From the NCBI GenBank assembly GCA_903958915.1, contig CAJBVC010000073.1:1-26322 (forward strand): a stretch of 26,322 nucleotides of DNA, read 5' to 3'. Below, one piece after another: positions 3,751 through 23,083 of this stretch. Both the position numbers and the translations under genes were made by a program. Positions within the stretch are counted from its first letter, which is position 1, and the number at the start of each line of letters is the position of its first letter. The notes under the pieces are model-generated. The model was not told where the DNA came from. It ran no database searches and was given only the letters and a program-made list of their open reading frames with translations. Origin of the DNA: an uncultured beta proteobacterium. GTDB lineage: Bacteria > Pseudomonadota > Gammaproteobacteria > Burkholderiales > Burkholderiaceae_C.

Positions 3751-3761
3751 GGCGTTCACCC

Positions 3762-4298: not shown

Positions 4299-4339
4299 GG
4301 GGTACTCCTTGGAGGTCGTGAAAAACAACCGATGCGTGG

Positions 4340-4374
4340 AGTATAGCAAGAAACCGAGTAATTTACTCAAGTAC
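4340..4374 (-). promoter_or_regulatory. iscR promoter with IscR type 1-like operator
   Basis: Reading the minus strand, a perfect 13-bp palindrome GAGTAA-A-TTACTC (4356-4368) lies inside CTTGAGTAAATTACTCGG. This follows the layout of the E. coli type 1 IscR site (ATAxxYGACT-N-AGTCRR), with the central C/G pair swapped symmetrically. A -10-like TATACT is at 4340-4345. The -35-like TTGAGT (4365-4370) overlaps the palindrome with a long 19-bp spacer. Binding there would block RNA polymerase, the known mode of isc autoregulation. The palindrome and hexamers are seen directly; the assignment to IscR is inference from position. Confidence 0.7.
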
Positions 4375-4394
4375 TTAGACTGATTAGTCACTTT

Positions 4395-6530
<2,136 letters not shown>

Positions 6531-6573
6531 GGGGTGTTGACTCAGGCCCGTTAAAATCAGGGGAAACCCTTAA

Positions 6574-6735
6574 GGACGCTCTGCATAACCCCTCGCGGTG
6601 TGTGATAGCACGGCCTCGGGCGGTCTGCGGTGTTGCCTTTCTTGCCAATAGCTACAGCTATTGGCTGCAAAATGCGCCTTGCAGCCCTTCCCGATCCGCG
6701 CTACACCCACTCGCGTAGAGTTATGCAGAGCATCC
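6574..6735. repeat. 162-bp near-palindromic foldback (MITE-like) element
   Basis: The left arm (6574-6613) and the reverse complement of the right arm (6696-6735) start GGACGCTCTGCATAAC and GGATGCTCTGCATAAC, which is 15 of 16 identical. They continue with weaker similarity (CGCGGTGTGTGATAGCACGG against CGCGAGTGGGTGTAGCGCGG) for about 40 bp. The centre contains further perfect inverted repeats (see 6644-6686). The element fills most of the 244-bp gap between the divergent uvrB and aminotransferase genes. Long imperfect terminal inverted repeats without coding capacity are the hallmark of a MITE or foldback element. No clear target-site duplication was found, so mobility is inference. Confidence 0.6.
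6644..6686 (+). other. Two mutually exclusive perfect hairpins at the foldback centre
   Basis: A 10-bp perfect inverted repeat, GCCAATAGCT / AGCTATTGGC (6644-6653 and 6656-6665), is followed by an 8-bp perfect one, GGCTGCAA / TTGCAGCC (6663-6670 and 6679-6686, 8-nt loop). They share the bases GGC at 6663-6665, so only one can form fully at a time. They lie about 90 bp before the aminotransferase ATG. If they are transcribed in its leader they could act as alternating structures; no T-run or peptide-coding leader supports classical attenuation. Confidence 0.5.
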
Positions 6736-6774: not shown

Positions 6775-7971
6775 ATGTCCCTGTTTTCCGCCGTCGAAAT
6801 GGCCCCCCGCGACCCTATCCTGGGTTTGAACGAGCAGTTCAATGCCGACACCAACCCCAACAAGGTCAACCTCGGCGTGGGTGTTTATTCCGACGACAAC
6901 GGCAAACTGCCGCTGCTGCAATGCGTGCAAATGGCCGAAAAGACCATGATGGACAAGCCGACCGCGCGTGGTTACCTGCCCATTGACGGTATTGCTGCCT
7001 ACGACGCCGCGGTCAAATCACTGGTGTTTGGCGCTGACAGCGAAGCCGTCACAGCGGGGCGTGTGGCGACTATTCAGTCATTGGGTGGCACTGGCGGTCT
7101 CAAGGTGGGTGCGGATTTCCTGAAGCGGCTCAGCCCGGATGCAAAAGTGCTGATTTCGGACCCGAGCTGGGAAAACCACCGCGCCCTGTTTACCAACGCA
7201 GGCTTTCAGGTCGATTCCTACACCTACTATGACGCAGCCAAGCGCGGCGTCGACTTTGACGGCATGCTCGCGGCGCTCCACGCTGCGGCGGCGGGCACTA
7301 TCGTCGTGCTGCATGCCTGCTGCCATAACCCTACCGGTTATGACATCACAGCGGCCCAGTGGGACCAAGTGATTGCCGCCTGCAAAGCCCGCAATCTGAC
7401 ACCGTTCCTGGACATGGCCTACCAGGGTTTCGCACAGGGCATTGCAGAAGACGGTGCGGCCGTTGCCAAATTTGTCGCCGCGGGCTTGACCTTCCTGGTG
7501 TCCACTTCGTTTTCCAAGAGCTTCAGCCTGTACGGCGAGCGCGTGGGCGCTCTCAGCGTGTTGTGCACCGACAAGGAAGAAGCGGGACGTGTGCTATCGC
7601 AACTCAAGATCGTCATCCGTACCAATTACTCCAATCCACCCACACACGGAGGTGCCGTGGTGGCGGCAGTGCTCAACAACCCTGAATTGCGTGCACTGTG
7701 GGAAAAAGAGCTGGGCGAAATGCGCGTGCGTATCAAGGCCATGCGCCAGAAACTGGTCGATGGACTCAAGGCAGCCGGGATTGCACAGGACATGGGCTTC
7801 ATTACCACGCAGATCGGCATGTTCAGCTACTCGGGCCTCACCAAGGACCAGATGGTGCGCCTGCGCAGTGAGTTCGGTGTTTACGGAACCGATACTGGCC
7901 GCATGTGTGTGGCGGCTCTGAACAGCAAGAACATTGACTACGTCTGCGCCTCCATCGCCAAAGTTCTATAA
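6775..7971 (+). CDS. Class I aminotransferase (aspartate/aromatic amino acid type)
   Basis: This is a PLP-dependent transaminase of the AspC/TyrB subfamily, expected to interconvert aspartate or aromatic amino acids with 2-oxoglutarate in the cytoplasm. It has 398 residues, the family norm (396-398). Active-site residues line up with E. coli AspC/TyrB: W132, N185 in CCHNPTGYD, D213 and Y216 in FLDMAYQGF, the PLP lysine K248 in STSFSKSFSLYGERVG, R256, and the substrate carboxylate-binding arginine in the C-terminal TGRMCVAALN. The start is supported by AGGAG 6 nt before the ATG. It is divergent from uvrB. Substrate preference between aspartate and aromatic amino acids cannot be read from the sequence alone, so no symbol is given. 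Confidence 0.95.
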   Translation: MSLFSAVEMAPRDPILGLNEQFNADTNPNKVNLGVGVYSDDNGKLPLLQCVQMAEKTMMDKPTARGYLPIDGIAAYDAAVKSLVFGADSEAVTAGRVATIQSLGGTGGLKVGADFLKRLSPDAKVLISDPSWENHRALFTNAGFQVDSYTYYDAAKRGVDFDGMLAALHAAAAGTIVVLHACCHNPTGYDITAAQWDQVIAACKARNLTPFLDMAYQGFAQGIAEDGAAVAKFVAAGLTFLVSTSFSKSFSLYGERVGALSVLCTDKEEAGRVLSQLKIVIRTNYSNPPTHGGAVVAAVLNNPELRALWEKELGEMRVRIKAMRQKLVDGLKAAGIAQDMGFITTQIGMFSYSGLTKDQMVRLRSEFGVYGTDTGRMCVAALNSKNIDYVCASIAKVL

Positions 7972-7972
7972 G

Positions 7973-8013
7973 AAAAAAGTGGCTGCAGCGCCCTCCAGAC
8001 AAGCGTAAGCAGC
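7973..8013 (-). terminator. Hairpin repeat between convergent genes, terminator-like on minus strand
   Basis: The stem has GCTGC (7982-7986) pairing with GCAGC (8009-8013), and an inner CGC (7989-7991) pairing with GCG (8003-8005). On the minus strand the hairpin is followed within 2-3 nt by six T residues (complement of 7973-7978), so it can terminate the secreted-protein gene ending at 8022. The overall pattern (TGGCTGC-AGCGC ... GCG-AGCAGCTA, flanked by A/T runs) resembles an AT-flanked repeat I recall from Comamonadaceae intergenic sequence; this was not checked. The stem is imperfect, so strength is uncertain. Confidence 0.45.
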
Positions 8014-8021
8014 TACAAAAT

Positions 8022-9122
8022 TCAGAGCAAACCGGCGCTACGCAGACGCTCCAGTGCGGTTTTCGCCTCGGGCGTCGGGTTGCGCAGCAAATAGAACACG
8101 ATGGCGTAGCGCGACGTGAAAGCGTGGCCGGGGCCACTTTGGAGCGCCTGCGCAAAGTCCTGCGCAAACTCCCAGTGCTCCCAGGTACCCAGATCTGACG
8201 CGACCAGACCCGCACGTTGCGGATTGGCGGCAATGAAGGCTGAGTAGGCTTGCACCACCTGTTGCCGCGTAACCCGAACCGCCTCGCCCCCGTGCACGCT
8301 CAGCGCCAGCAAGGCGGCTTGAGTCGAAGGGTCAGGAATCTTCGGATCCTGCAAAAACCGTTGCTGGACCCACAGCAAACCCTCAGCACCACCCTGCTCC
8401 ACCAGCGCGGCAAGCAAAGCGGAAAGCTCGGCCACTGGCAATGTGGTGTTCGCTTGTGCAAGCTGCGCCTGCAACAGCGCGAGCGTGCCAGATTTCTTTT
8501 GCAAACCCCACAAAAGATAGTACAAGGGGCGGCGACTCAGCAGCGCCGGGTCCTCAACCCATACCGCAAGCGCTGCGGCGTCCACCCAGGGAGCGACACG
8601 GCGCAGCGTTGCATAAGGCAAGGTCGCAATTTCGTCGTAGGCCGCACGTGCAATCAGGGGTTCTGCGTCTTCCAGGCCTCGGACAAAGAACCGCGCCCGC
8701 TCCAGTTGTAGCTCGGTGCGGTCGGCAGTGGCAACGGGCATTTTCATCGCCTCGAGCAGCCATGGCAGCCGCTGCACCCCGAGCCGCCCTGCAGACCACC
8801 AGGTTTGCGAACCCGCATTGAACAGCAAGAGATGCGCGTCGCCGGCAAGCCGAGGTGGCAACGCATCCGCCCCCGGCAGGACTCCTGCCACCATCAGGTC
8901 CGATTGCGGTAATAAACCGCTTGCAGACACCAAGGGGTGCGCGAGACCGCCGGGAACGGCCCACTGCGCCAACACCACCCGATCTGCAGCAGCGAGGCGC
9001 CGCATCAGCGTATTTTGCAAGTCGCTTGGCGCACATATCGAACACGCCTGCGCGTCGGCGGCGCACAATAGCAGCAATAGCGCAGCCCACAGGCCCGCTC
9101 GGCGCAATGCGTTGAAGTACAT
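8022..9122 (-). CDS. Uncharacterised secreted protein with N-terminal CSIC motif
   Basis: I do not recognise the family. Starting at ATG 9122 the product is 366 residues with a clear signal peptide (ALRR, then GLWAALLLLLC, cleavage near ADAQA at about residues 24-26). The mature chain therefore begins with CSICAPSDLQ (C27, C30), two closely spaced cysteines that are not a haem site because no histidine follows. The rest is Ala/Leu-rich and helical, with stretches such as RAAYDEIATLPYATLRRV that could form HEAT-like repeats; this is inference. There is no Shine-Dalgarno sequence, and a TACAAT -10 element ends 7 nt before the ATG, suggesting leaderless translation. It is divergent from the phospholipase-like gene at 9226 with a 103-bp shared control region. 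A longer open frame to 9227 would remove the signal-peptide position and is rejected. Confidence 0.75.
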   Translation of the reverse strand: MYFNALRRAGLWAALLLLLCAADAQACSICAPSDLQNTLMRRLAAADRVVLAQWAVPGGLAHPLVSASGLLPQSDLMVAGVLPGADALPPRLAGDAHLLLFNAGSQTWWSAGRLGVQRLPWLLEAMKMPVATADRTELQLERARFFVRGLEDAEPLIARAAYDEIATLPYATLRRVAPWVDAAALAVWVEDPALLSRRPLYYLLWGLQKKSGTLALLQAQLAQANTTLPVAELSALLAALVEQGGAEGLLWVQQRFLQDPKIPDPSTQAALLALSVHGGEAVRVTRQQVVQAYSAFIAANPQRAGLVASDLGTWEHWEFAQDFAQALQSGPGHAFTSRYAIVFYLLRNPTPEAKTALERLRSAGLL

Positions 9123-9129
9123 CAGTGCT

Positions 9130-9135
9130 ATTGTA
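9130..9135 (-). promoter_or_regulatory. -10 element TACAAT placing transcription start at or next to the ATG
   Basis: On the minus strand, TACAAT (5 of 6 match to TATAAT) ends 7 nt before the ATG at 9122. Transcription would therefore start at or within about a base of the start codon and give a leaderless mRNA. No good -35 hexamer was found 16-18 bp upstream, so this is a weak or activator-dependent promoter at best. Confidence 0.4.
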
Positions 9136-9225
9136 GGATTCAGATACCGACAAAATCCCGGTGCAATCGACACATAATCGCGCATCGACGGATGAACTTG
9201 CCAGCCGCAATTTAGGGAAACCTCC

Positions 9226-10575
9226 ATGAAACGACTTCACCAACTTCCCGTGCTGGCCTGCTTTCTCGCTTGCTGGGCACCATCGGTGATGGCCTGGGGA
9301 AACCACAGCTTCCCCTCGTACCGGGCTTTCGAGAAATTCCCCGAGGTTGTCAATGCGGCCCCGGTGACCGTCGAAACACTCGAGAGTTTCCTGAAGGCGG
9401 AAGAAAAGACCCTGGAAGTGCTGCTGGCCAGCCAGGAGGCGTGGGCCCAGGCCAATATCGACAAGTTTCCGGCACGCCCGGCAGCGCTTGCTTTCAAGGC
9501 CGAACCGCAGCGATCGGACGAGGCCCGGCGTCTGGCGTTTCTGATGGCGTTACGGATAGCGCCCAACGCGAAATTCGCGCTGTTTTACCAGCCTGACCCG
9601 CAGAACCCGGTGCAAACAACCAGCCTGCTGCCCCACACTGCCGTCAACACCCTGCCGGAGGTAGCCAATTCGACCTACCGCTACCTGCCCCTAAAGGCAG
9701 GAGAACAGATTGCGCCACTCTCGGTGCTGGCGTCGGCCAGCGACGAGCCAGACTATGGCATCGACATCAACCTCTGGGAGGACAGCCCCTCCGATTGGGG
9801 CAAAGTCTACGGATTCGCCCTGCAGCCCTTCGGCAACCCGGCGTTGGCGTATTCGTCACAAGCGCCTTTTCACATGGGTTTCATGCACGAGAACAAAGTG
9901 CTGTACCTGGCCGCGCCGTTTATCAAGCGTACGTTCCCATTGCTTCGGTCCCACCAGTTTTCCAGTTTGGCAGAACTGGCGTTTCGCACCGGCCATCACT
10001 ATTGGGGTTGGCGATTCACGGGGCTGGCGCTGCACTATTTGCAGGACCTCACCCAGCCCTACCACGCAAGCCTTGCCCCGGGTCACTCCATCTTCAAACT
10101 ACTGGGCGCCAACGCATTGGCGATGGCGGGAATGCCAGGCATGAAGGACAACATGGTGGTACTGCTCTCCAACCGCCATCTGGCGCTGGAGAAGTACCAG
10201 ACCGAGCTGCTACAAAGCGCGGCATTGAAGAAGCAGGAAACCGCCATCGAAAAGGCGTTGCGCAACCAGGAGCGTGACGTCTCCTACCCGGAGTGGAACG
10301 ACCGCTACGTACGCGACACCGTGTCCGCACAGTCTGCAGGTGCAGGTGAGCAGTTGGCCAAAATACTGGTCGCCTCGATGCCGGAACTCTTTGTGAACGA
10401 TCCGACATTCGACTTCGGCGTCAAGGAGTCAGGCATCACACTGGCGACCGAACTGGCCAAGCGCGATAGCCGCGACAGCGCCGCCCTGGAGGCCATCATT
10501 GCCGAGCTTCTGGGCAATTTTGGTGCCCACAGCCGCAACGCGGTTCGCGGAATCTTGCGGGCCGGAGCGATGTAA
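9226..10575 (+). CDS. Exported zinc-dependent phospholipase C / S1-P1 nuclease-like protein
   Basis: The 449-residue precursor has a signal peptide cleaved after VMA (residues 21-23), leaving tryptophan W24 as the new N-terminus. This is the hallmark of the zinc phospholipase C/P1 nuclease fold, where the terminal Trp binds zinc. Further ligands keep the spacing known from Bacillus cereus PLC: H257 in TGHHYWGW, then H270, D274 and H280 in LHYLQDLTQPYH (spacing H-x3-D-x5-H), then H318 and E322 in NRHLALEKY (H-x3-E). An Asp-rich stretch at about 173-186 may supply the remaining ligand. It probably hydrolyses a phosphodiester (phospholipid or nucleic acid) in the periplasm or outside; substrate is not readable. 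The start codon has only a weak purine-rich site upstream. It is longer than PLC (about 245 mature residues) owing to insertions before H257 and a C-terminal extension. Confidence 0.8.
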   Translation: MKRLHQLPVLACFLACWAPSVMAWGNHSFPSYRAFEKFPEVVNAAPVTVETLESFLKAEEKTLEVLLASQEAWAQANIDKFPARPAALAFKAEPQRSDEARRLAFLMALRIAPNAKFALFYQPDPQNPVQTTSLLPHTAVNTLPEVANSTYRYLPLKAGEQIAPLSVLASASDEPDYGIDINLWEDSPSDWGKVYGFALQPFGNPALAYSSQAPFHMGFMHENKVLYLAAPFIKRTFPLLRSHQFSSLAELAFRTGHHYWGWRFTGLALHYLQDLTQPYHASLAPGHSIFKLLGANALAMAGMPGMKDNMVVLLSNRHLALEKYQTELLQSAALKKQETAIEKALRNQERDVSYPEWNDRYVRDTVSAQSAGAGEQLAKILVASMPELFVNDPTFDFGVKESGITLATELAKRDSRDSAALEAIIAELLGNFGAHSRNAVRGILRAGAM

Positions 10576-11810: not shown

Positions 11811-12281
11811 ATGAAGAAACACATCGGATATTTGTCTCTATGGTTCTTGGGTATCGGCGCGGCGCACGCCAGTGCCGTGGTACTTCAGCAACCCTTGCCC
11901 CCATTGCCTTTGCAAGACCAGCATGCCAAGGCATGGAGCATGAGAGCGGATACGCGCCTGGTGATATTTGCAGCGGGTCGCACGCCATCGAATCTGGTGA
12001 TGGAGGTACTGGGCGAGCAGCCCAAAGGATTTCTGGATTCACGCCATGCGGTGTACGTCGCCGACATGAGTCGCATGCCAGGCATCATTGCTCGCACTTT
12101 TGCATTGCCCGCACTGCGTGAACAGCCGTTTGCAGTCGGTGTGGCCCTGGAAGAAAAGCTGTTGTCCCAGTGGCCGCGGCAGGAAGACGCCATCACCTTG
12201 ATACACCTGGAGGCCGGCAAGGTGGCACGCATAGACTACGCCCGCTCCGCCGTTGAACTGAAAGCTGCCCTGGGCTTGTGA
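11811..12281 (+). CDS. Small exported protein, thioredoxin-like fold without CXXC
   Basis: The 156-residue product has a signal peptide (MKKHIGYLSLWFLGIGAAHA, cleavage about residue 20). The mature part starts LPPLPLQDQHAKAWSM, then a beta strand TRLVIFAAG, an amphipathic helix, and strands AVYVADMS and AITLIHLEAGKV, the order expected of a thioredoxin-like domain. There is no cysteine pair, so it is not a disulfide oxidoreductase. I recall similar uncharacterised betaproteobacterial proteins but no assigned function. TAGGA lies 7 nt before the ATG. It is 58 bp after the sugar dehydrogenase gene, and its stop overlaps a GTG in GTGA that could serve as an alternative start for the next gene. 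Confidence 0.7.
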   Translation: MKKHIGYLSLWFLGIGAAHASAVVLQQPLPPLPLQDQHAKAWSMRADTRLVIFAAGRTPSNLVMEVLGEQPKGFLDSRHAVYVADMSRMPGIIARTFALPALREQPFAVGVALEEKLLSQWPRQEDAITLIHLEAGKVARIDYARSAVELKAALGL

Positions 12282-12343
12282 ACGCCGCGCACCTACACCC
12301 CCGATGCGCTAGTGTTCGAGAACCTTCAAGTAAGTCCTGCACC

Positions 12344-13240
12344 ATGAAGATCGATGAAACCATACCGTGGCGATGGCCGCAGTCATGGTGGAACCGGTCA
12401 ACCTACCGGGTTGCTGTTGTCGTTTGCGCAACGTGCTTAGCATTGCCAGTCGCTTCGCAAACAGCGGCTACTCCATCTGTGCCCGCGGCTTCGGCGGTGA
12501 GGGCGCCCATGTGTGTACACACCGTACGATGGTCATCCAATCTTGCCAAAGTTCAGCGCAATGCCGACGGCATCTCGCCCAGCCAGGATAGCGACATTGC
12601 GCAAGAGGTCTTGCGCCGCATGGGGTGCAAAGCAAAGTTTATCGACCTGCCGTGGGCACGTGCACTGGTCGAGCTCGAACTGGGACGTCTGGATGTTCTG
12701 CCAGGTGCTTTTGTTAAACCAGAGCGGCAAAAGTACGCCTACTTTTCGCGGCCCTACCTGCGCTCCACCAATATTCTGTTCATTCGTTCGACGCTGGTAG
12801 CCAAGTACCCCTTCAGGAACCTCACCGACATCATGGAGTCCGACTTCCGGCTGGGCGTGCAGATTGGAGTGTCCTACGGGCCGGCGTTCGATGCGATGCG
12901 CAAGCATCCGCAGTTCCAGGCGCGTCTGGTCGAACTCAGTGCCCGCGAAAGTGCGTGGAAGATGCTGCAACTCGGACGCATAGACGGGCTGGTCGCCGAC
13001 GCGTACATTGGAGGTACGGAATTGCGCGACCTGGGGTTTGGGGCCGTTGCGGTGCCTACCGATTTGGTGATTACCGACGAGCCCTCGACGTTTGCCCTCA
13101 GCAAGCGCAATTTGAACGAGACGTTTGTGCGGGGTTTTGATGCGGCGCTGGAGAGCATGATGTCCGATGGGACCTACAAGAAAATCCGTGAGCGCTACGA
13201 AACCTGCCAGATTTCTGCAACGAAACTCGCCTGCAAATAG
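12344..13240 (+). CDS. Solitary periplasmic solute-binding protein (SBP family 3)
   Basis: The protein is about 298 residues, with an N-terminal signal segment (STYRVAVVVCATCLALPVASQ, residues about 21-41) and a mature domain resembling amino-acid-type binding proteins of ABC systems. It has the two-lobe pattern DSDIAQEVLRRMGCKAKFIDLPWARALVELELGRLDVLPGA (about residues 83-123) and a second-lobe region LGVQIGVSYGPAFDAM. No permease or ATPase gene lies nearby, so it may serve as a sensor or a binding module rather than a transporter. The start is uncertain: ATG 12344 puts the signal peptide near the N-terminus, while GTG 12278 overlaps the previous stop by 4 bp and would add 22 residues. A hairpin follows the gene and separates it from the signalling operon. 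Confidence 0.8.
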   Translation: MKIDETIPWRWPQSWWNRSTYRVAVVVCATCLALPVASQTAATPSVPAASAVRAPMCVHTVRWSSNLAKVQRNADGISPSQDSDIAQEVLRRMGCKAKFIDLPWARALVELELGRLDVLPGAFVKPERQKYAYFSRPYLRSTNILFIRSTLVAKYPFRNLTDIMESDFRLGVQIGVSYGPAFDAMRKHPQFQARLVELSARESAWKMLQLGRIDGLVADAYIGGTELRDLGFGAVAVPTDLVITDEPSTFALSKRNLNETFVRGFDAALESMMSDGTYKKIRERYETCQISATKLACK

Positions 13241-13301: not shown

Positions 13302-13330
13302 CTGACATTTTTTTGCGTGCAGTCTAGAAT
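13302..13330 (+). promoter_or_regulatory. Near-consensus sigma-70 promoter of the signalling operon
   Basis: CTGACA (13302-13307) and TAGAAT (13325-13330) are separated by exactly 17 bp; each matches 5 of 6 consensus bases. The predicted start is near 13337, giving a leader of about 50 nt before the receiver gene at 13389. It lies just after the stem-loop that ends the previous gene, so the five signalling genes can be transcribed as their own unit. Confidence 0.7.
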
Positions 13331-13388
13331 GCGCGTCACTACGCCGGTTCAGGCGGATCGTGCAGGCTGATAACGTGCAGGGCGATAC

Positions 13389-13853
13389 ATGAACCAGTAC
13401 AGCCAGGTCAAGATTTTGATCGTTGATGACATCGAAGACATGCGCAACATCGTGCGTCGCCTGCTCTTGGCCATGGGCTTCGGAAAAGTTCACGTCGCCC
13501 GCAATGGGCTTGAGGCGTTGAATCTCCTGCGATCGTTCCCGATTGACATTGTGGTATGCGACTGGAACATGCCCAAGATGTCCGGGCGAGAGTTGCTCGA
13601 AGCTGTGCGTGGCGACCCGAACCTCTGGCTGATTCCGTTCATCATGTTGACCGGAGAGAATTCCGAGCAGCAAGTCAAGAGCGCCGTAGCCGCAGGCGTG
13701 ACGGATTTCATCGTCAAGCCTTTCAAGGCGTCCACCCTGGAGCACCGCCTGGGTCTGATACTGAATTCAGCAACTCTGCCGGATGCGCCGGAAAGTCCTT
13801 CCACCGAGCGAAATGCTCCCTCGAATGCGCGCAATGCCAATCAATCCCAGTAA
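13389..13853 (+). CDS. CheY-like single-domain response regulator
   Basis: The 154-residue protein is a stand-alone receiver domain (about residues 5-125) with a short Ser/Asn-rich tail. The acidic pair D13-D14, the phosphoacceptor D58 in VVCDWNMPKMSG, T88 in MLTGE and K110 in IVKPF are all present, so it should be phosphorylated. The sequence VKILIVDDIEDMRNIVRRLL and DWNMP resemble CheY. There is no output domain; it presumably acts by protein contact or as a phosphate shuttle. AGGG lies 6 nt before the ATG. The gene is first in the operon and its end overlaps the start region of the following kinase, which suggests a cognate pair. Confidence 0.93.
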   Translation: MNQYSQVKILIVDDIEDMRNIVRRLLLAMGFGKVHVARNGLEALNLLRSFPIDIVVCDWNMPKMSGRELLEAVRGDPNLWLIPFIMLTGENSEQQVKSAVAAGVTDFIVKPFKASTLEHRLGLILNSATLPDAPESPSTERNAPSNARNANQSQ

Positions 13854-16494
13854 CTCATCCGTACAAACAGCTGACAGTTCCGTCAGCGAGTTGATAGAGA
13901 CGATCCGGCAGCTCAAGGCCCGTGAAAAGCAGCTTCTTGGCCTGCTGGGTTCTGCTGCCAATTCGGTTATGGGCATGGACACCGAAGGCATCGTTACCGA
14001 GTGGAACCCCGGCGCAGAAAGGATACTGGGCTGGTCCAAGCCAGAGGCGATGGGACGGCGCATGTCGGAGTTGATCATTCCCGAGCAGCTACGCGAAGCC
14101 CATGAATCCGGCATGCGCCGGTACGTCGAAACCGGACAGGCCCACGTGCTCAACCGCATTGTCCCGATGGAAGCCAGGCACAAAGACGGGCACATATTTC
14201 CGATCGAACTCATCATCTGGCAAGTCTCCACCGACCGTTGTGACGGATTTGCTGCTTCCATTCGAGACGTGTCGATTTTGCACGATAGTCAACGGGTGCT
14301 GCGCGAGTCCGAAGAGCGTTACCGCTCTGTTGTCGAGCATTTGGGCGAAGGCATGTTTGTCGCACAAAATGACCGTGTTGTGTTTTGCAATGCGCAGGCA
14401 AGCACCATATTGCGTGTGCCCAACGAGCAGTTGCTGGGTTCTGATCCCACCGAGTGGATCCACCCCGACGACCGGACCATTGTTCTGAACCTGCGCTCCC
14501 GCCTGCAGCAGGGCCTGGATACCGAGCCGCAGTATGAACTTCGGCACATCGGGCAGGACGGGACCATTGTTTGGCTCAACATCCGTCCCAAGCCTGTAGC
14601 CTGGGGTAGTGGTCAGGCGACCCTGACCTTTTTCTCGGACGTCACAGCGCAGAAGCAGATTTTGCAGGCCATGGAGCGCTCCGAGGAACGCTATCGTGCA
14701 GTCATTGAGAACGTGGACTCTGGCATGGTCGTGAACCAGGCAGACCGATTCGTTTACGCCAACCGTCGGGCCGGTGAAATCGCGCGCATGACGCAGGAAG
14801 ACATCCTGCAGGTTGGGTTCCTGCACCGCATTCACCCGCAAGACCATGCCCTCATTCTTGACCGACGTGCGCGACGACTGGCCGGGGAAGATGTCCCGAG
14901 CCGCTACGAAGTGCGGTTGCTGCACGATGATGGCAGTGTCTGCTGGATAGAGTTGGGTGTATCGGTAGTTCCATGGGATGGCCTGCCGGCAACGATCACC
15001 TTCTTTTCGGATGTCACGCAACGCCGCGCGATGACGGAAGCACTACAGCGCTCGGAGGACCGCTACCGTGCCGTGGTGGAACACAGTGGCGAGGGTATGG
15101 TGGTGGTCCACGACGGCCGCTTTGTGTTTGTCAACCGCCGGGCAGCCGAGCTGGTGCAGATGACGCCCGAAGACATGATTCGTGAGGGGTATTTACACCG
15201 GATCCATCCGGACGACAAGCAACTCGTTGACGACCGCCGCAAACGCCGACTGGCGGGCGAAACGGTTCCGAGTCGTTACGAGATTCGCATGCTTTTGCCT
15301 GGTGAAATCGTACGCTGGCTGGACATTGGTGTGACCGTCGTACCCTGGGATGGAGCTACGGCTTCACTTACCTTCTTTTCAGACATTACCGATCGCAAGA
15401 ACGCGCAAGCGGAATTGCAGCGCACCGCATCGGAACGGGAAGCCATTTTCAATAGCGCACTGGTAGGCATTGTGCTGTCGGTCCGGCGCGAGTTGCGCTG
15501 GGTCAATGACAAACTGGCAGAGATGGTCGGACTTTCGAAAGAAGAGTTGATTGGTCAGACGACCCGGGTCTTTTTCGCTTCGGAAGAAGAATGGAAAGAC
15601 GCGGTTGCCCTGCAACGCGCGTCGCTTCTGGAGACCGGCGTCTTCTCCGGTGTGCGACAGCTGCAATTGGCCAGTGGTGCATCGTTGTGGGTGCAGGTGG
15701 CCGGCCGCTGCATTCGGGACCGCGAGCCCGACGCGGGTGTCATCTGGACTTTTCTGGACATTTCGGAACGCGTTCGTGCAGAACAGAACACGCTGGCCGC
15801 ACTGGAGAAAGAACGCGAGCTCAATGAGTTGCGATCACGCTTTGTGGCCATGACCAGCCATGAGTTCCGTACGCCGCTGGCCACGATCCTTTCCTCCGCG
15901 GAACTCCTGAAGTATTACGGGGAACGCATACCTGCTGAGGAAAAGATGGAAGTGATTGAAACGATCGAGAGCAGTGTGCATCGCATGACCCGCATGCTCG
16001 ACCGCGTGCTGTTGCTGGGCAAGGCCGATGCACAGATGCTGGAATTCAATCCCCGTGAAATCGACCTGCATGCTCTTTGCTGCGAGCTGGTTGAAGAGGT
16101 CAAAACACAGTACCCCGATTCGAAGCACACCATCGTTTGCACGTTTGATGCGCACACCCGCATCGGAAAATTCGACGAGAAACTGTTGCGACACGTGTTT
16201 GGCAATTTGCTTTCCAACGCGCTCAAATACTCCCCGGATGGCGGGGAAGTCAGTTTTTCCATTGAACGTGAGAGTGGGCGCGTGGTTTTTCGGGTGCGCG
16301 ATCACGGTATCGGCATTCCGCCCGAGGAAGTACCGCATCTGTTCGAATCGTTCCATCGTGCAAGCAATGTTGGTGACATTCAGGGAACTGGTCTGGGACT
16401 CGCGATCGTCAGGAACTCCGTGCATTTGCACGGTGGAGAGATTCAAGTGAGCAGCAACATGGGTGCGGGCACCACTTTTGCCGTCACCCTATAG
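13813..16494 (+). CDS. Soluble multi-PAS sensor histidine kinase (five PAS domains)
   Basis: No membrane segment is visible, so this about 893-residue kinase should sense cytoplasmic signals. Order: PAS1 (about 40-160), PAS2 (170-277), PAS3 (293-404), PAS4 (417-528), PAS5 (537-657), then the phosphoacceptor domain with H683 in MTSHEFRTPLATILSS, and the ATPase domain with N-box NLLSNALKYSP, G1 DHGIGIPPEE and G2 GTGLGLAIV. PAS2-PAS4 are evident tandem duplications, each beginning RYR(A/S)V and ending TFFSD(V/I)T. The start is uncertain: ATGs at 13783, 13813, 13825 and 13834 are in frame, all overlapping the receiver gene. 13813 is chosen because GAGCGAA precedes it. It is followed by a receiver gene after 15 bp. 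Ligands of the PAS domains are not evident. Confidence 0.92.
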   Translation: MLPRMRAMPINPSNSSVQTADSSVSELIETIRQLKAREKQLLGLLGSAANSVMGMDTEGIVTEWNPGAERILGWSKPEAMGRRMSELIIPEQLREAHESGMRRYVETGQAHVLNRIVPMEARHKDGHIFPIELIIWQVSTDRCDGFAASIRDVSILHDSQRVLRESEERYRSVVEHLGEGMFVAQNDRVVFCNAQASTILRVPNEQLLGSDPTEWIHPDDRTIVLNLRSRLQQGLDTEPQYELRHIGQDGTIVWLNIRPKPVAWGSGQATLTFFSDVTAQKQILQAMERSEERYRAVIENVDSGMVVNQADRFVYANRRAGEIARMTQEDILQVGFLHRIHPQDHALILDRRARRLAGEDVPSRYEVRLLHDDGSVCWIELGVSVVPWDGLPATITFFSDVTQRRAMTEALQRSEDRYRAVVEHSGEGMVVVHDGRFVFVNRRAAELVQMTPEDMIREGYLHRIHPDDKQLVDDRRKRRLAGETVPSRYEIRMLLPGEIVRWLDIGVTVVPWDGATASLTFFSDITDRKNAQAELQRTASEREAIFNSALVGIVLSVRRELRWVNDKLAEMVGLSKEELIGQTTRVFFASEEEWKDAVALQRASLLETGVFSGVRQLQLASGASLWVQVAGRCIRDREPDAGVIWTFLDISERVRAEQNTLAALEKERELNELRSRFVAMTSHEFRTPLATILSSAELLKYYGERIPAEEKMEVIETIESSVHRMTRMLDRVLLLGKADAQMLEFNPREIDLHALCCELVEEVKTQYPDSKHTIVCTFDAHTRIGKFDEKLLRHVFGNLLSNALKYSPDGGEVSFSIERESGRVVFRVRDHGIGIPPEEVPHLFESFHRASNVGDIQGTGLGLAIVRNSVHLHGGEIQVSSNMGAGTTFAVTL

Positions 16495-16509
16495 GACTCA
16501 GGGGTACAC

Positions 16510-16899
16510 ATGAAACGCATTCTGGTGATCGAAGATGAAGCTCCCATTCGGGCCAACCTGATCCGGTTTCTGCGCCTGGAGGGCTTTGAAACGTTTGAGG
16601 CGCCGGATGGTGAGGCCGGGCTGGCGATGGCCATCGAAATAGAGCCCGACCTGATCTTCTGCGACGTAATGATGCCGCGAATGGACGGATTTGCGTTGCT
16701 CGATGCGATGCGCCTGGACGCGCGCGTCCGGGACATTCCGTTCTATTTTTTGTCGGCAAGCGCAGAACCTGAACGCCTGGAGCTGGCAATGGAAAAGGGC
16801 GCTCTTGGTTACCTGACCAAACCATTCAATCTCACCCAGTTACACGAAATTCTGCGCCGACAATTTCCGCTGGACGACCGTACGGGAGCCACCCAGTGA
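16510..16899 (+). CDS. Single-domain response regulator
   Basis: The 129-residue receiver has E8-D9 in VIEDEAPIR, phosphoacceptor D52 in LIFCDVMMPRMDG, S82 (LSAS) in place of the usual Thr position, and K104 in YLTKPF. It lacks any output domain. It follows the multi-PAS kinase by 15 bp, with an AGGGGT purine-rich site before the ATG, and its stop overlaps the next GTG start by 4 bp. It may act as an intermediate in a phosphorelay or as a competing phosphate sink; which kinase phosphorylates it cannot be read from the sequence. Confidence 0.93.
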   Translation: MKRILVIEDEAPIRANLIRFLRLEGFETFEAPDGEAGLAMAIEIEPDLIFCDVMMPRMDGFALLDAMRLDARVRDIPFYFLSASAEPERLELAMEKGALGYLTKPFNLTQLHEILRRQFPLDDRTGATQ

Positions 16900-18638
16900 A
16901 CAACGTCATTGTGGTCGCCGAAGACGATGCAGATATCCGCAGCAACCTGACGCGGCTGCTCCGTATGGAAGGTTTTACCGTACACGCTGCGCCCAATGGG
17001 CGCGAAGGATTTTCACTGGTGCAAAAGCACGTACCGGATATGGTGCTCAGTGATGTCACCATGCCCGAAATGACCGGGCACGACCTGGTGCGGGCCATCC
17101 GCGCCTTACCCACTCTGGCCCAGATTCCGGTCGTGTTGCTGACCGCCCGCGCGGACCGCGGTGATGTCAGAGAGGGCATGAACCTGGGCGCGGATGATTA
17201 CCTGACCAAGCCGTTTCAGCGCGAGGAATTGCTGACCTGCATTCGCGCCCAAATGGAAAAGTCAGCCATGCGACAGATGGCCTCCAGGCGTCAGCTCGAA
17301 CAGGCACACCACCTTTCCCACTTTGACAAAGTCACCAACCTGCCGAACCGGACTCACTTTCTTGTGCTGCTTACCGACGCGCTGGCACAGATGCGCCAAC
17401 AGGAGCATGGACACCGGCTCCTGCTCGCCTCGCTGGCACTGGACAATCTGTCGCATGTGGCCGAGGTGCTTGGCACTGCTTCTTTGGACGCCTGTGTCAA
17501 TGCGCTGGGTCGACGCCTTGTGGAGGTCACCCATTCGAAAATCGCGCCGCATGCAGCGCGCGTTGCAGTCGGACGGCTGGGCTTTGACCGCTTCGCAGTC
17601 TTTGTATTGCAACCCCCGGGCGACAATGACCCCCGACCGGTCGCCGAACTCTTGCTGGCGGACATGGGGAGCCCCATCCAACTCAATGAGCAGGAGCATT
17701 TCCCTTCGGTGTCGGTCGGCATCAACACGTCGCTGCGCGATGACGACAACGCGGAATCACTTTTGGCACGGGCGGAGATTGCTGTCTCCATCGCCGCGTC
17801 GCAGTTTGGCGTGAAGCTGGCCATTCTGGATGGCGATACCAGTGCCGACTTCTCCTCAACGTTTCGCTTGCACAACGACCTGCACCGATCCGTTGAGCGT
17901 CAGGAATTGCTGGCCTTTTTTCAGCCTCAGGTCTCATCTTTTGACGGGTCGGTGTGCGGATTCGAGTCCCTGATGCGCTGGAACCATGCCACATTGGGCT
18001 TTGTCTCGCCCGCCCGCTTCATCCCGTTGGCCGAGAACAATGGGCAGATCGTGAGCATGGGAGCATGGATCCTTCGTGAAGCCTGCATGCAGGCCAGGCA
18101 TTGGCAATCTGGAGCAGGCCAGCCGTTGCGGGTTGCCGTGAACCTGTCCATGCGGCAGTTCATGGATCCCTCGCTCGAGACGCACATTCGCAGCGCCCTA
18201 GAGGAAAGCGGGTTGCAACCGCCACAACTTGAACTAGAGGTTACCGAGGGCACGGCCATGTTTGACATGGAACAGACTCTGGCTTTGTTGCGCCGATTCA
18301 AGGCCATGGGATTGAAGCTCGCCATTGACGACTTCGGGACAGGGTATTCCAGCCTGTCTTACCTGAAACGATTTCCGCTCGATGTACTGAAGATCGATCA
18401 GTCCTTCGTCCGTCAGCTCTGCACCGATCAGGACGATCTTGCAATTGTGCGAGCCATCATCTCGCTGGCTCACAGCCTGGGCTTGAGCCTGATCGCCGAA
18501 GGCGTGGAAACGGTTGCGCAGGAATCCCTGCTCAGGGACATGGGCTGCCAGGAGATTCAGGGCTATCTGCATGCCAAACCGATGCCTGCGAGCGATGTCT
18601 CCGGTTGGCTGGCCACACGTGCGGGAAGTACCGCATGA
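16896..18638 (+). CDS. Response regulator with degenerate GGDEF and intact EAL domain (c-di-GMP phosphodiesterase)
   Basis: The 580-residue protein has a receiver domain (about 1-120: acidic pair D10/D11, D53 in LSDVTMPEM, T82, K105), a GGDEF-like domain (about 150-300) and an EAL domain (about 325-570). The cyclase signature is replaced by GFDRF (229-233), so synthesis of c-di-GMP is not expected. The EAL domain reads E357-S-L in FESLMRWNH, with the metal and catalytic positions retained: NLSMRQF, LELEVTEG, AIDDFGTGYSSLSYL, K of LKIDQSF, IAEGVET and QGYLHAKPM. It should therefore hydrolyse c-di-GMP to pGpG when phosphorylated or de-repressed. GTG start 16896 overlaps the previous stop (GTGA); its own stop overlaps the next ATG (ATGA). 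It is the only gene in the operon with an effector output. Confidence 0.94.
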   Translation: MNNVIVVAEDDADIRSNLTRLLRMEGFTVHAAPNGREGFSLVQKHVPDMVLSDVTMPEMTGHDLVRAIRALPTLAQIPVVLLTARADRGDVREGMNLGADDYLTKPFQREELLTCIRAQMEKSAMRQMASRRQLEQAHHLSHFDKVTNLPNRTHFLVLLTDALAQMRQQEHGHRLLLASLALDNLSHVAEVLGTASLDACVNALGRRLVEVTHSKIAPHAARVAVGRLGFDRFAVFVLQPPGDNDPRPVAELLLADMGSPIQLNEQEHFPSVSVGINTSLRDDDNAESLLARAEIAVSIAASQFGVKLAILDGDTSADFSSTFRLHNDLHRSVERQELLAFFQPQVSSFDGSVCGFESLMRWNHATLGFVSPARFIPLAENNGQIVSMGAWILREACMQARHWQSGAGQPLRVAVNLSMRQFMDPSLETHIRSALEESGLQPPQLELEVTEGTAMFDMEQTLALLRRFKAMGLKLAIDDFGTGYSSLSYLKRFPLDVLKIDQSFVRQLCTDQDDLAIVRAIISLAHSLGLSLIAEGVETVAQESLLRDMGCQEIQGYLHAKPMPASDVSGWLATRAGSTA

Positions 18639-21109
18639 CCTCCGCACTCATGCGGGGGGTTGCATGCCGTGCGAAGTTCTTTTGCCAAGTTGAGAGACTC
18701 TTCTTCTGCTGCCTGTTTATCGCACTACTTTCCGGCGTGGCGCCCCCTGCTAACGCTGACAGCCAGCCCGTTGTGTCCGTCAGCACCCAACAAGAGCACA
18801 TTTCGTTATCGGCCAGTGCCTGGGTCTTTCGGGACTTGGGGCGCGAGATTCGCCTGGTGGACCTGATCGGGCCGCAGGGTGATGCACTTTTTGGCGCCGG
18901 CACCCTGGACGTCGGCCATCAAGAAGCTGCCTTCTGGGTTCGCCTGAAGCTGCAAAGCAGCGCGCAAATCGACACCCGGTGGTGGCTGGATACCGGTAAT
19001 CACTACCTGCCGGAAATTGTGGTTTACGCCACGGACGCACAAGGCCGCTACCAGGCCCAGTCGGCGGGCGGATCACGGCCATTTTCAGACCGGCCCTTGC
19101 CTACACCGCACTTTGTCTACCCCATTGAGCTACCGGCGGGAAAGCCCATCGACGTTTATGTGAAGGCCACCACGCGGGGAATCCTGAATCACACCTTGAA
19201 CTTCAGGCTATGGCAGCCCGAGGCGCACAAAGCCCACAACCGGTTGGTCGAAGTTCAATGGTTTCTGTTTCTGGGCATTGCCGCAGGGCTCGCCCTGTTC
19301 AATCTCTCGTTGTATTTTTCGTTGCGTGACACCAGCTACCTGCTGTTTGTGGGCACTGTGCTGGCGCAGGTTTGGCGTACCAGCGACAACGGGCTGGCAT
19401 TTGAGTACTTCTGGCCAGACGCACCCTTTTTTGAGCAGGTGATCTCGCGTGGGCTGTCGCTCATTGCCGTGCTGGTATTCACGAACCTGTTTGTCAGCCG
19501 GTTCATCGAGCTGCACAAGTTGCGTCCTGCCATGTACCGGCGACTCCACGGCGTGACGCTGGCGATTTCTGCCCTGATTTTGTTGAGCATGAGCAGTGTC
19601 TATACGTCATCCTTCGTGCCACCTGGAGTGTTTCGGTTCCTTCAACAACTCTTTGTCGCGGGGCTCGTTCTGTATGTTCTGTACATGCTGGGCCTGCTGG
19701 CACGCTGGACCTGGCAGGGAAATCGCAAGGCCAGGTCGATTCTGTTTGCCTTTTCACCGGTGTTGATCCTTACCGGCCTGATCGTGCCGTTGCTTGCTTT
19801 GTGGCAGATTGACTTCAACTGGACCATTCCACCGATGATGATCGGTGCCGCCCTCGAAATGATCCTGATGTCCCTGGCGCTGGCAGACCGGCTCAATGAA
19901 GCGACGCTGGCCAAAGAACAGGCGCAAATCGCACTTGTCGACGGTTTGCATCGCAAAGAGCGTGAGCTCGAATTGAGGGTTGAACAGAGAACCCAGGATC
20001 TGGCACACGCCAATGAGGCGTTTCAGGGCATTCTGGAAAACGCGCACGATGGCATCGTCCTTACCCACCAACGCGGCCAGATTACCCACTGGAATCGGCA
20101 AGCGGAATTGACATTTGGCTGGTCACGCGACAGTGTTCTGGGACGTGACTTCACTTCCATAGTCTTTGGTTCGGGTAGCGTACCGATACCCGTAACAAAT
20201 CTGCTGAGTCAGAATCCGAACAACGACCCACCGGAAACTTCACGAATTGAAACGACCGCCGTGCGGCAGGACGGCACCAAGTTTCCACTCGAACTCTCGG
20301 CAACGTCCATTCATGTCAATGACCAGCCCGAGTTCGGCTTTTTCTTGCGTGACATCACCCAGCGGCGCAAGGCGGAAGAGGAAATTCGCGCCTCCCTTGC
20401 CCGTCAGCGAGAGTTGGTGGATCTCAAGTCCAGTTTCGTGACCATGGCATCCCACGAGTTTCGCACTCCCTTGACCACCATTTTGTCGTCGACCGAATTG
20501 CTGCGCTTTTATGGCGACCGCATGCCGCAGCAGGAGCGCGAGAACCTGCATCTTTCGGTTGAAAGTTCCGTCCAGCGCATGACCCGGATGCTGGACGATG
20601 TCCTGCTGATCGGAAAGAGCGATGCCGGCATGCTGGAGTGCCATCCGGAGCCGACCGATGTGCGCGCCTTCTGCGCATCGCTGGTCGATGAAGTTAGTGC
20701 CGCCACTGACTTGGAGAAAAAAATACTGCCGCCAATCCATTTACGTATTGCATCGGATGTGGGTTGGGCCGCGTTTGACCCCAAGCTTCTTCGGCACATT
20801 TTTTCAAATCTCTTGTCAAATGCCATCAAGTACTCTCCCAATGGCGGCACCGTGGAATTCGATGTCGCAGTACAAGGTTCCAGCTTGGAATTCTCGGTTG
20901 TCGATCATGGGATCGGCATTCCGCCCGAAGAGTTGAACGGACTATTTGAATCTTTTTTCCGCGCCAGCAATGCCGCAGAAATTTCAGGGACTGGCCTGGG
21001 GCTCGCTATTGTGAAGCGGTCGGTTGAACTCCACGGTGGGACGATCACAGTATCCAGTGTACTGAGCCAAGGGTCCCGATTTGTGGTGTTGTTACCTGTT
21101 CTAAACTAA
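18635..21109 (+). CDS. 7TM-DISM membrane sensor histidine kinase
   Basis: The 824-residue protein has a signal peptide (cleaved near PPANA, about residue 40), a periplasmic sensing domain of the 7TMR-DISMED2 type (about 50-190), seven membrane helices of the 7TM-DISM family (about 208-422), a short coiled coil (KERELELRVEQRTQDL), a PAS domain (460-575), the phosphoacceptor H607 in MASHEFRTPLTTILSS, and an ATPase domain with NLLSNAIKYSP, DHGIGIPPEE and GTGLGLAIV. DISMED2 domains have a carbohydrate-binding-like fold, so a sugar-like periplasmic ligand is a reasonable guess. The ATG at 18635 overlaps the EAL gene's stop by 4 bp and follows GGGAAG; an upstream in-frame ATG at 18605 is less likely. 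The kinase core is closely related to that of the soluble kinase in the same operon. Confidence 0.94.
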   Translation: MTSALMRGVACRAKFFCQVERLFFCCLFIALLSGVAPPANADSQPVVSVSTQQEHISLSASAWVFRDLGREIRLVDLIGPQGDALFGAGTLDVGHQEAAFWVRLKLQSSAQIDTRWWLDTGNHYLPEIVVYATDAQGRYQAQSAGGSRPFSDRPLPTPHFVYPIELPAGKPIDVYVKATTRGILNHTLNFRLWQPEAHKAHNRLVEVQWFLFLGIAAGLALFNLSLYFSLRDTSYLLFVGTVLAQVWRTSDNGLAFEYFWPDAPFFEQVISRGLSLIAVLVFTNLFVSRFIELHKLRPAMYRRLHGVTLAISALILLSMSSVYTSSFVPPGVFRFLQQLFVAGLVLYVLYMLGLLARWTWQGNRKARSILFAFSPVLILTGLIVPLLALWQIDFNWTIPPMMIGAALEMILMSLALADRLNEATLAKEQAQIALVDGLHRKERELELRVEQRTQDLAHANEAFQGILENAHDGIVLTHQRGQITHWNRQAELTFGWSRDSVLGRDFTSIVFGSGSVPIPVTNLLSQNPNNDPPETSRIETTAVRQDGTKFPLELSATSIHVNDQPEFGFFLRDITQRRKAEEEIRASLARQRELVDLKSSFVTMASHEFRTPLTTILSSTELLRFYGDRMPQQERENLHLSVESSVQRMTRMLDDVLLIGKSDAGMLECHPEPTDVRAFCASLVDEVSAATDLEKKILPPIHLRIASDVGWAAFDPKLLRHIFSNLLSNAIKYSPNGGTVEFDVAVQGSSLEFSVVDHGIGIPPEELNGLFESFFRASNAAEISGTGLGLAIVKRSVELHGGTITVSSVLSQGSRFVVLLPVLN

Positions 21110-21480: not shown

Positions 21481-21783
21481 GTGCATATTGTTCCCAAATT
21501 TGTGTTGAGCCTGACACTCGCTGGCAGCTGTCTGGCTGCCCAAGCAGACGCCCTTCAAATACGCAGCATGGCGGCGTCCTGCGCAGGATGCCATGGAACC
21601 AATGGCGTAGCCCAGCCGGGCATGGAGTCCCTGGCCGGCAAGCCCAAGGATGACCTGCTGACAAAAATGCAGGACTTCAAGTCTGGCAAGAAACCTGCAA
21701 CCCTGATGAATCAGTTGGCAAAAGGGTATTCGGACGAGCAAATCGTCCAGCTCGCCATCTATTTTTCGGCTCTCAAGAAGTAA
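21481..21783 (+). CDS. fccA: Monohaem cytochrome c subunit of flavocytochrome c sulfide dehydrogenase
   Basis: A 100-residue periplasmic class I cytochrome c: signal peptide cleaved near AQA (about residues 20-22), one haem site CAGCH (C34, C37, H38) and a likely axial methionine M76 in ATLMNQLAKGYSDEQI. The gene directly precedes the flavoprotein subunit, so it is the electron-accepting partner that takes electrons from FAD during sulfide oxidation. It carries one haem, unlike the dihaem subunit of Allochromatium, and resembles the smaller FccA/SoxE type. GTG start 21481 is supported by AGGAG 5 nt upstream. The stop is 10 bp before the fccB ATG, showing an operon. Confidence 0.88.
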   Translation: MHIVPKFVLSLTLAGSCLAAQADALQIRSMAASCAGCHGTNGVAQPGMESLAGKPKDDLLTKMQDFKSGKKPATLMNQLAKGYSDEQIVQLAIYFSALKK

Positions 21784-21793
21784 GGTGAACAAC

Positions 21794-23083
21794 ATGAAAC
21801 GTCGTCAATTTGTCAAAACGCTGAGCGTCGGTTCGGTATTGGGAGCGTCTGCAACGCTGGGTGTGCTTTCGGGTTGTGCATCCACGGGCAATGGTCGCGG
21901 TCCCAAGGTGGTCGTGATCGGTGGTGGTTTTGGTGGTGCAACGACTGCCAAGTACATCCGCATGTGGTCGGATTACGGCATCGGCGTAACACTGATTGAA
22001 CCCAATTCATCTTTCGTTTCGTGTCCGATCTCCAACTTGGTACTTGGCGGCATCAAGACGATGGCAGACATCACTACCCCCTACGACGGCCTGGTCAAAC
22101 ACGGTGTCACGCTGGTACGCGATTCGGTGGTGTCCATTGACACTGAAAAGAGATTGGTGAAGTTGGCCGGCGGCTCCGAGCTGGGGTACGACCGGGTTGT
22201 TGTTTCGCCAGGCGTGGATTTCATGTGGGAGACATTGCCCGGCATGGCAACACCGGGTGCCAAAGACAAGGTACTGCACGCCTGGAAAGCCGGGCCACAA
22301 ACGCTGGCCCTGCGCCAGCAGCTTGAATCCATGCCAGACGGTGGTGTTTTTGCCATGGCAATTCCGCTGGCACCCTACCGCTGCCCACCTGGGCCGTACG
22401 AGCGGGCCTGCCAGGTTGCCAATTACCTGAGCAAGGCCAAACCGAAGTCCAAGGTGTTGATTCTCGATGCCAATGAGGATGTCACCTCCAAAGGCCCGTT
22501 ATTCAAGAAAGCCTGGGCGGAGCGTTACAAAGGCATGATTGAATACCGGCCCAAACACGGTTTGAGTGATGTGGATGTTGGCAAGAACACACTGAAGTTC
22601 GAGTTTCACGATGATGTGCGGGCCGATGTTCTGAATGTCATTCCCTCCATGCGCGCGGGTGAGATTGCGGTCAAAACCGGACTGGCTACGGCCAACAAGC
22701 GCTGGTGTGAGGTTGACTTTTTGACCTTTGAATCCAAGGCCGCCAAAAATGTTCACGTTTTGGGAGACTCCATCCAGATTGCTCCGGGCATGCCCAAGTC
22801 AGGTCACATGGCCAATCAGCATGGCAAGACCTGTGCTGCAGCCGTGGTGGCCTTGTTAACGGGCAAAGAACCCAACCCCACGCCCATCTACAACAACACC
22901 TGCTACAGTTTTGTGAGCGAGGAAGACGCTGTGCATGTGGCCAGCGTACACACCTATGATCCCGACAAGAAAACCATGGTGACGGTGGCAGGGTCTGGTG
23001 GCGTATCCAGGGCTGCCAGCGAGCTGGAGGGTCGCTTTGCCCATGCATGGGCGCGTGGCATCTGGGCCGATACCCTGGGTTAG
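21794..23083 (+). CDS. fccB: Flavocytochrome c sulfide dehydrogenase flavoprotein subunit
   Basis: This FAD enzyme of the periplasm oxidises sulfide to sulfane sulfur/polysulfide and hands electrons to FccA. The 429-residue precursor has a twin-arginine signal (MKRRQFVKTLS) followed by a lipobox-like LSGC (C28). The FAD dinucleotide motif is VVVIGGGFGGATTAKY (about 39-54). Three cysteines of the enzyme are conserved: C77 in SCPISNLVLGG (covalent FAD site, C42 of A. vinosum), and the redox pair C197 in YRCPPGPYERA and C370 in YNNTCYSFV (C161/C337). The motif MPKSGHMANQHGK near the second FAD region also matches. ATG 21794 follows AAGGTGA at good spacing; the in-frame GTG at 21785 is less likely. 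Sulfide:quinone reductase is excluded by the cytochrome partner and Tat signal. Confidence 0.93.
   Translation: MKRRQFVKTLSVGSVLGASATLGVLSGCASTGNGRGPKVVVIGGGFGGATTAKYIRMWSDYGIGVTLIEPNSSFVSCPISNLVLGGIKTMADITTPYDGLVKHGVTLVRDSVVSIDTEKRLVKLAGGSELGYDRVVVSPGVDFMWETLPGMATPGAKDKVLHAWKAGPQTLALRQQLESMPDGGVFAMAIPLAPYRCPPGPYERACQVANYLSKAKPKSKVLILDANEDVTSKGPLFKKAWAERYKGMIEYRPKHGLSDVDVGKNTLKFEFHDDVRADVLNVIPSMRAGEIAVKTGLATANKRWCEVDFLTFESKAAKNVHVLGDSIQIAPGMPKSGHMANQHGKTCAAAVVALLTGKEPNPTPIYNNTCYSFVSEEDAVHVASVHTYDPDKKTMVTVAGSGGVSRAASELEGRFAHAWARGIWADTLG

Follow-up and report, generated by a model that had tools for sequence, protein, structure and literature searches.

Two Histidine Kinases and a Predicted c-di-GMP Phosphodiesterase in One Operon: A Putative Multi-Input Module in Burkholderiales

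Introduction

When two histidine kinases with unlike sensors are encoded in one operon, do they act on the same target? The question is raised by a locus of an uncultured member of the Burkholderiales. The window, i.e., the whole stretch of 26,322 nucleotides that was analysed, is one contig of a genome assembled in as many as 982 contigs, with 93% completeness and 6% contamination. A sequence-only reading had described a five-gene signalling operon at this place and suggested that two signals converge on c-di-GMP hydrolysis while small receivers act as phosphate shuttles or sinks. Here, the anatomy of the operon, the kinship of its kinases and receivers, and the distribution of its genes were examined.

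Results

Five co-directional genes at 13389..21109, encoding REC1, HK1, REC2, a REC-GGDEF-EAL protein and HK2, were identified by ORF calling and Pfam searches, and their domains are those that had been named (Table 1). The REC2 and EAL genes overlap by 4 bp (GTGA), as do the EAL and HK2 genes (ATGA), and a 15-bp gap separates HK1 from REC2. While these junctions agree with the earlier description, that between REC1 and HK1 does not: the overlap is 20 to 71 bp, depending on which in-frame ATG (13783, 13813, 13825 or 13834, the last of the four) starts HK1, the ORF being open from ATG 13783. The HK2 start is most likely ATG 18635 rather than the TTG at 18605 picked mechanically. The near-consensus promoter reported before REC1 is present, but such sites are not more frequent than expected by chance in this 10 kb (one found vs. 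3.4 expected), and it is kept as a weak candidate supported solely by its position. As had been noted, Pfam detected no DNA-binding output domain in the five operon proteins. No Rfam family reached its gathering score within the window. A solute-binding protein gene lies upstream of the operon, and cytochrome c and flavocytochrome c sulfide dehydrogenase genes begin 371 bp past HK2.

Table 1. Positions of the operon features and of other genes mentioned in the text
Feature	Locus	Position	Strand	Evidence or remark
Candidate sigma-70 promoter, CTGACA-N17-TAGAAT	window	13302..13330	+	58 bp before REC1
REC1, 154-aa CheY-like solo receiver	window	13389..13853	+	Pfam Response_reg 1.5e-26
HK1, soluble 5-PAS histidine kinase	window	13834..16494	+	Pfam: 5 PAS stretches, HisKA, HATPase_c
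REC2, 129-aa solo receiver, signature IRxNLxRxLRLEG	window	16510..16899	+	Pfam Response_reg 6.8e-25, alignment
REC-GGDEF (degenerate, GFDRF)-EAL, predicted phosphodiesterase, 580 aa, GTG start	window	16896..18638	+	Pfam EAL 1.6e-73, REC 1.1e-29, GGDEF 4.4e-16
HK2, 7TMR-DISMED2/7TM-PAS histidine kinase, 824 aa from ATG 18635	window	18635..21109	+	Pfam 7TMR-DISM_7TM 1.5e-29, DISMED2 9.1e-21, HisKA, HATPase_c
ORF, 401 aa	window	8022-9227	-	No Pfam/NCBIfam match
ORF, 449 aa	window	9226-10575	+	No Pfam/NCBIfam match
ORF, 156 aa	window	11811-12281	+	No Pfam/NCBIfam match
Solute-binding protein gene	window	12278-13240	+	Upstream of operon
Cytochrome c and flavocytochrome c sulfide dehydrogenase genes	window	21481-23083	+	
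Solute-binding gene	L095 (G009)	7746-8579	-	Between REC2-like gene and clade kinase
REC-Ser/Thr protein kinase fusion	L164	601-1848	-	Receiver of same alpha-1 type
REC-Ser/Thr protein kinase fusion	L162	583-1845	-	Receiver of same alpha-1 type
REC-Ser/Thr protein kinase fusion	L165	1429-2757	+	Receiver of same alpha-1 type
Receiver/guanylate-cyclase/Ser-Thr kinase gene, 749 aa	L148 (G143)	2010-4259	-	Divergent from clade kinase
DISM kinase, SREFRTPL	L144 (G331)	3857-6664	+	Arg replaces phospho-acceptor His
Clade kinase with GGDEF domain in sensor part	L052	4966-8586	+	
Clade kinase with GGDEF domain in sensor part	L141	6077-8683	-	Reads RLGGDEF

The EAL protein is similar to other GGDEF/EAL phosphodiesterases, and its receiver is N-terminal (residues 5-116 by Pfam). 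The closest homologues are 81% and 77% identical (P0002, P0003), and one carrying the name of the cultured Rhodoferax saidenbachensis is 62% identical. The GFDRF motif, already pointed out from the sequence, was confirmed at the position of the expected GG(D/E)EF. Residues were checked in the 120 homologues listed of 198 that matched at E 1e-120. Throughout these 120, E357, R361, N416, E448, D478 and D479 of the EAL domain are invariant and neither GGDEF nor GGEEF occurs at the motif site; K499 is conserved in 119 and replaced by R in one, and 119 retain the receiver Asp, Thr and Lys, the remaining one having a gap there. With an intact set of EAL residues and a degenerate GGDEF motif, the protein is predicted to be a phosphodiesterase, not a cyclase.

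The expectation that one kinase is soluble and the other senses the periplasm was borne out. A Kyte-Doolittle scan found no hydrophobic segment in HK1; HK2 has a signal-like segment followed by six segments above threshold, and its DISMED2, 7TM, HisKA and HATPase_c domains all exceed the Pfam cut-offs, which places it among the 7TMR-DISM kinases. The cores of HK1 and HK2 are mutual best matches in the genome (254.7 bits, 56%; the next match reaches 123.2 bits, 36%). At the six DHp positions that we take to set specificity, HK1 reads ATSSLL and HK2 TTSSLL, while in the genome's next four kinases these residues are SSGFLL, ASGFLL, ASGYLL and ASGYLM. The mutual best match and the five of six residues in common argue for the suggested convergence of two signals on c-di-GMP hydrolysis. 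Two observations count on the other side: the H+7 residue differs (A vs. T), and the HK2 core falls in a different subclade from HK1.

This subclade structure comes from a tree of 65 kinase cores, 60 of which form one clade (support 100/96) that is partly dispersed in Burkholderiales genomes. The HK1 core groups with the kinase at the G009 EAL hub (99/94). The HK2 core pairs (100/94) with a G012 DISM kinase near which, within 1.5 kb, no receiver gene was detected. The wider 8-row subclade of HK2 (94/85) includes GAF/TPR kinases of G023 and G003 that are encoded just past the EAL gene, as well as non-hub kinases of G009, G003 and G022. Clade kinases number two in G000, four each in G009 and G023, and nine in G003, with a single one in each of seven two-gene genomes (G001, G007, G020, G025, G029, G032 and G036) and in G012 and G022, both lacking the hub. 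Three of those in G009 and six of those in G003 lie away from the hub, as do the single kinases of G012 and G022. HK2 itself is rare: ten proteins matched at E 1e-150, five of them (own included) with at least 64% identity; the closest homologues (P0122, P0123) share 72%. Two clade kinases carry a GGDEF domain in their sensor part (Table 1).

The receivers were then compared. The best solved-structure match of REC1 is CheY (2chy, E 3.2e-30), and it scores 111.3 bits against the NCBIfam CheY equivalog, under the cut-off of 189. The best solved-structure matches of REC2 are RpaA, a response regulator (4ja2) and PhoB. At five alpha-1 positions REC2 reads PINLF and the EAL receiver DINLL, with I, N and L in common, and REC1 is different (DMIVL); the receivers of eight two-gene loci read SLNLM or SLNLL. 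These residue patterns are consistent with a single kinase type that addresses both REC2 and the EAL receiver, REC1 standing apart. Three receivers are present, as had been counted, but they belong to two classes, one CheY-like (REC1) and one with another alpha-1 signature (REC2 and the EAL receiver). The shuttle or sink role ascribed to the small receivers may suit REC2, which fits as a co-target; it is not supported for REC1, whose likeness to CheY may point to another pathway, and hence not for every small receiver.

To read the layout elsewhere, the EAL protein was searched in near-relative genomes (11 of 61 matched at E 1e-120, own included) and in family and order genomes (8 of 399 and 2 of 399, respectively, at E 1e-125, own included). 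These matches and one further locus make up 18 other loci, all of which were read. Locus L036, the same record as L054, and 13 weaker loci (28-43% identity) were left out; L054 and L035 are near-identical and were counted as two. Per genome, the best three (EAL), seven (clade kinase) or ten (REC2) candidates were scored, and per-genome counts may be low. The exact five-gene order recurs at none of the 18 loci. Its core, HK-REC2-REC/GGDEF/EAL, is nevertheless found at eight (G009, G023, G003, G113, G270, G069, G401 and a bin from Erken lake), among which those of G401 and the Erken bin are near-identical and the contig of G069 ends within the kinase. The earlier reading had named a gene order unique to this locus as grounds for its refutation, which applies to the exact order but not to the core. 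Nine loci have HK-REC/GGDEF/EAL without REC2, eight of them with Gly at H+11 of the kinase, and the G765 locus combines a kinase, a phosphodiesterase and another receiver protein, also without REC2. REC1 recurs in G009 only. Extra kinases accompany five of the eight core loci; when the window is included, nine of the ten extra kinases at hub loci belong to the clade, the exception being a hybrid kinase in the Erken bin. The solute-binding gene upstream of the operon and that of G009 (Table 1) share 22% identity over 152 residues, and the former was rejected as a part of the system.

An operon of this layout could also have gained HK2 by chance, as a neighbour inserted behind it that serves another receiver, leaving HK1, REC2 and the phosphodiesterase as the system. 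This agrees with the BLAST result that DISM kinases are missing from all 18 other hub loci, and with the setting of the kinase closest to HK2 among the loci (that of G012, 64% across the DISM part), which has no hub or detected receiver nearby. However, HK2 overlaps the EAL gene by the 4 bp of the ATGA junction, and in G023, G003 and G270 the EAL gene is immediately followed on its 3′ side by a clade kinase in convergent orientation, those of the first two genomes belonging to the 8-row subclade of HK2. We consider a chance insertion improbable. Among the loci examined, the window is the one with a clade DISM kinase inside a hub operon.

The DISM-type members of the clade number 14, HK2 included; a truncated DISM/PAS kinase fragment of G320 (L170) was left out. 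For 12 of the 13 outside the window, no receiver gene was detected within 1.5 kb (BLAST, E 1e-3), and the remaining one has an NtrC-type regulator 568 bp upstream. Since these kinases stand without a nearby receiver, the window suggests a partner for this orphan group. In the DISM kinase of G331 the phospho-acceptor His is replaced by Arg, and this protein is likely dead or repurposed. Much the same NtrC-type regulator adjoins clade kinases in five genomes (L098, L130, L133, L141 and L146; Pfam on three), but its receiver has another alpha-1 and is 33-36% identical to REC2, and a role as general partner of clade kinases is not supported.

Co-occurrence was analysed in the family genomes, whose draws show the same handles and were treated as one set of 399. 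A clade kinase (E 1e-50) is present in 29 of them. REC2 homologues (E 1e-27) were found in ten of these 29 and in none of the other 370 (Fisher p 8e-13, ignoring kinship and partly reflecting plain linkage). An EAL orthologue (E 1e-125) was absent from five of those ten. Among the 29 genomes, five have the hub and REC2, three the hub only, five REC2 only and 16 neither, and the hub-REC2 association is weak (p 0.066). REC2 thus follows the kinase rather than the phosphodiesterase. Given that REC2 occurs without the EAL gene in half of its genomes, its role goes beyond tuning the phosphodiesterase, and the main target may be another than the EAL protein. An exclusive tie of clade kinases to the EAL hub was rejected, as 21 of the 29 genomes lack the EAL orthologue. 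At the thresholds used, the 16 genomes with neither gene imply that other receivers must serve many such kinases.

These counts open another reading, in which REC2 would be the chief receiver and act as a hub or relay in the manner of Caulobacter MrrA (PMC5964349), while the EAL protein would be just one among several exchangeable outputs served by the same kinases. In addition to the distribution of REC2, it draws on four genomes (G302, G159, G454 and G099) where a clade kinase directly adjoins REC2 without the EAL gene. Another possible output of the same kind was found in G003, G009 and G012, three of the 61 relatives, which encode REC-Ser/Thr protein kinase fusions 64-100% identical to the query; in these proteins the receiver shares 52-56% identity with that of the EAL protein and 46-50% with REC2. 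Four relatives have clade kinases away from the hub, and the three genomes belong to these four (3/4 vs. 0/57, p 1e-4, ignoring kinship). At E 1e-60 the query matched six of the 61 relatives; the others, G038, G046 and G052, come from other families, match at 37-48% and have no clade kinase, and with them counted the enrichment is 3/4 vs. 3/57 (p 0.002, ignoring kinship). What weighs against REC2 as the main receiver, besides these three genomes, is its absence from the nine two-gene loci and from G765, and the fact that it usually adjoins the kinase, so that the co-occurrence is partly linkage in counts that ignore kinship. On balance we regard this reading as rather unlikely.

G143 encodes a 749-aa receiver/guanylate-cyclase/Ser-Thr kinase protein (Table 1). 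This gene and the Ser/Thr kinase fusions indicate that the network may reach beyond c-di-GMP.

Discussion

The gene anatomy, the intact residues, the kinship of the kinases, the receiver signature and the conserved HK-REC2-phosphodiesterase core are the basis on which we read the locus as a multi-input two-component module for c-di-GMP breakdown, an account that we consider probable, with considerable reserve. HK1 would act as a cytoplasmic PAS sensor and HK2 as a periplasmic DISM sensor with a catalytic core of the same type, and each would phosphorylate REC2 and the receiver domain of the EAL protein. In the EAL protein this phosphorylation would set c-di-GMP hydrolysis by the EAL domain, the degenerate GGDEF domain having a structural or allosteric role. 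REC2 would compete for the same phosphoryl groups or pass them to another target, and REC1 would be a CheY-like accessory, more likely linked to motility than to the phosphodiesterase. Every phosphotransfer is a prediction, as are the signals, the way in which control runs and the part played by REC1. At a larger scale, and only tentatively, the Comamonadaceae-type Burkholderiales may possess one kinase clade with exchangeable sensors (PAS, GAF, TPR, HAMP and 7TM-DISM), with as many as nine members in a genome and often no receiver encoded nearby, which converges in a bow-tie onto a few receivers of one specificity: solo, c-di-GMP phosphodiesterase and REC-Ser/Thr protein kinase.

The locus suggests a concrete partner for a group of orphan 7TM-DISM kinases. 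It may also be a testable case of many sensors feeding one c-di-GMP phosphodiesterase, in which the phosphotransfer interface is kept and the sensor domains are swapped. The kinases with Ser at H+11 beside REC2 and the eight two-gene systems with Gly at this position form a natural comparison for specificity drift.

A literature search covering mostly titles and abstract openings, with few subscription journals, found no account of this gene set, and a narrow query for receiver-Ser/Thr-kinase regulators had no match. The VieSAB system of Vibrio cholerae resembles the operon in that a kinase, a REC-EAL protein and an extra receiver protein are encoded together, but it has a single kinase and VieA includes a DNA-binding domain. 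In the Shewanella HnoX-HnoK-HnoB-HnoD system, as outlined in a review, a kinase likewise phosphorylates the receiver of a phosphodiesterase and an extra protein tunes it (HnoD inhibits HnoB), but the kinase is single and under a nitric-oxide sensor protein (PMC8846402); no HNOB domain was found among the 24 window ORFs scanned. MrrA of Caulobacter is a solo receiver fed by at least six kinases in a bow-tie layout, but it belongs to the alphaproteobacterial general stress response, passes phosphate to PhyK and LovK, and has no EAL output named in the abstract (PMC5964349).

The closest likeness is to RavA-RavR-RavS of Xanthomonas campestris, in which both kinases phosphorylate RavR, which degrades c-di-GMP and controls swimming and virulence (PMC6707612). 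There, as here, two kinase genes lie near one receiver/degenerate-GGDEF/EAL gene, one kinase has tandem PAS domains (PMC6707612), and a degenerate GGDEF (GFDRF in the window) is joined to an intact EAL domain. The comparison is one of architecture. In RavR, GGDEF-EAL is N-terminal and D496 is phosphorylated, hence its receiver is C-terminal, whereas that of the window protein is N-terminal; RavA has no recognisable input domain, and the outline of the system names neither solo receivers nor a DISM kinase (PMC6707612). The earlier reading knew of no described system with this exact order, but two kinases acting on one receiver/degenerate-GGDEF/EAL protein had been described, and RavA-RavR-RavS may be taken, by analogy, as a published functional precedent. 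The compact multi-input c-di-GMP phosphodiesterase module predicted from these sequences appears to be real. What is new here is that a DISM kinase type, orphan elsewhere, is tied to the REC2/EAL receiver pair, with a dispersed clade around it. Similar systems are thus already known, and this copy hints at the missing partners of sensors that are usually alone in the genome.
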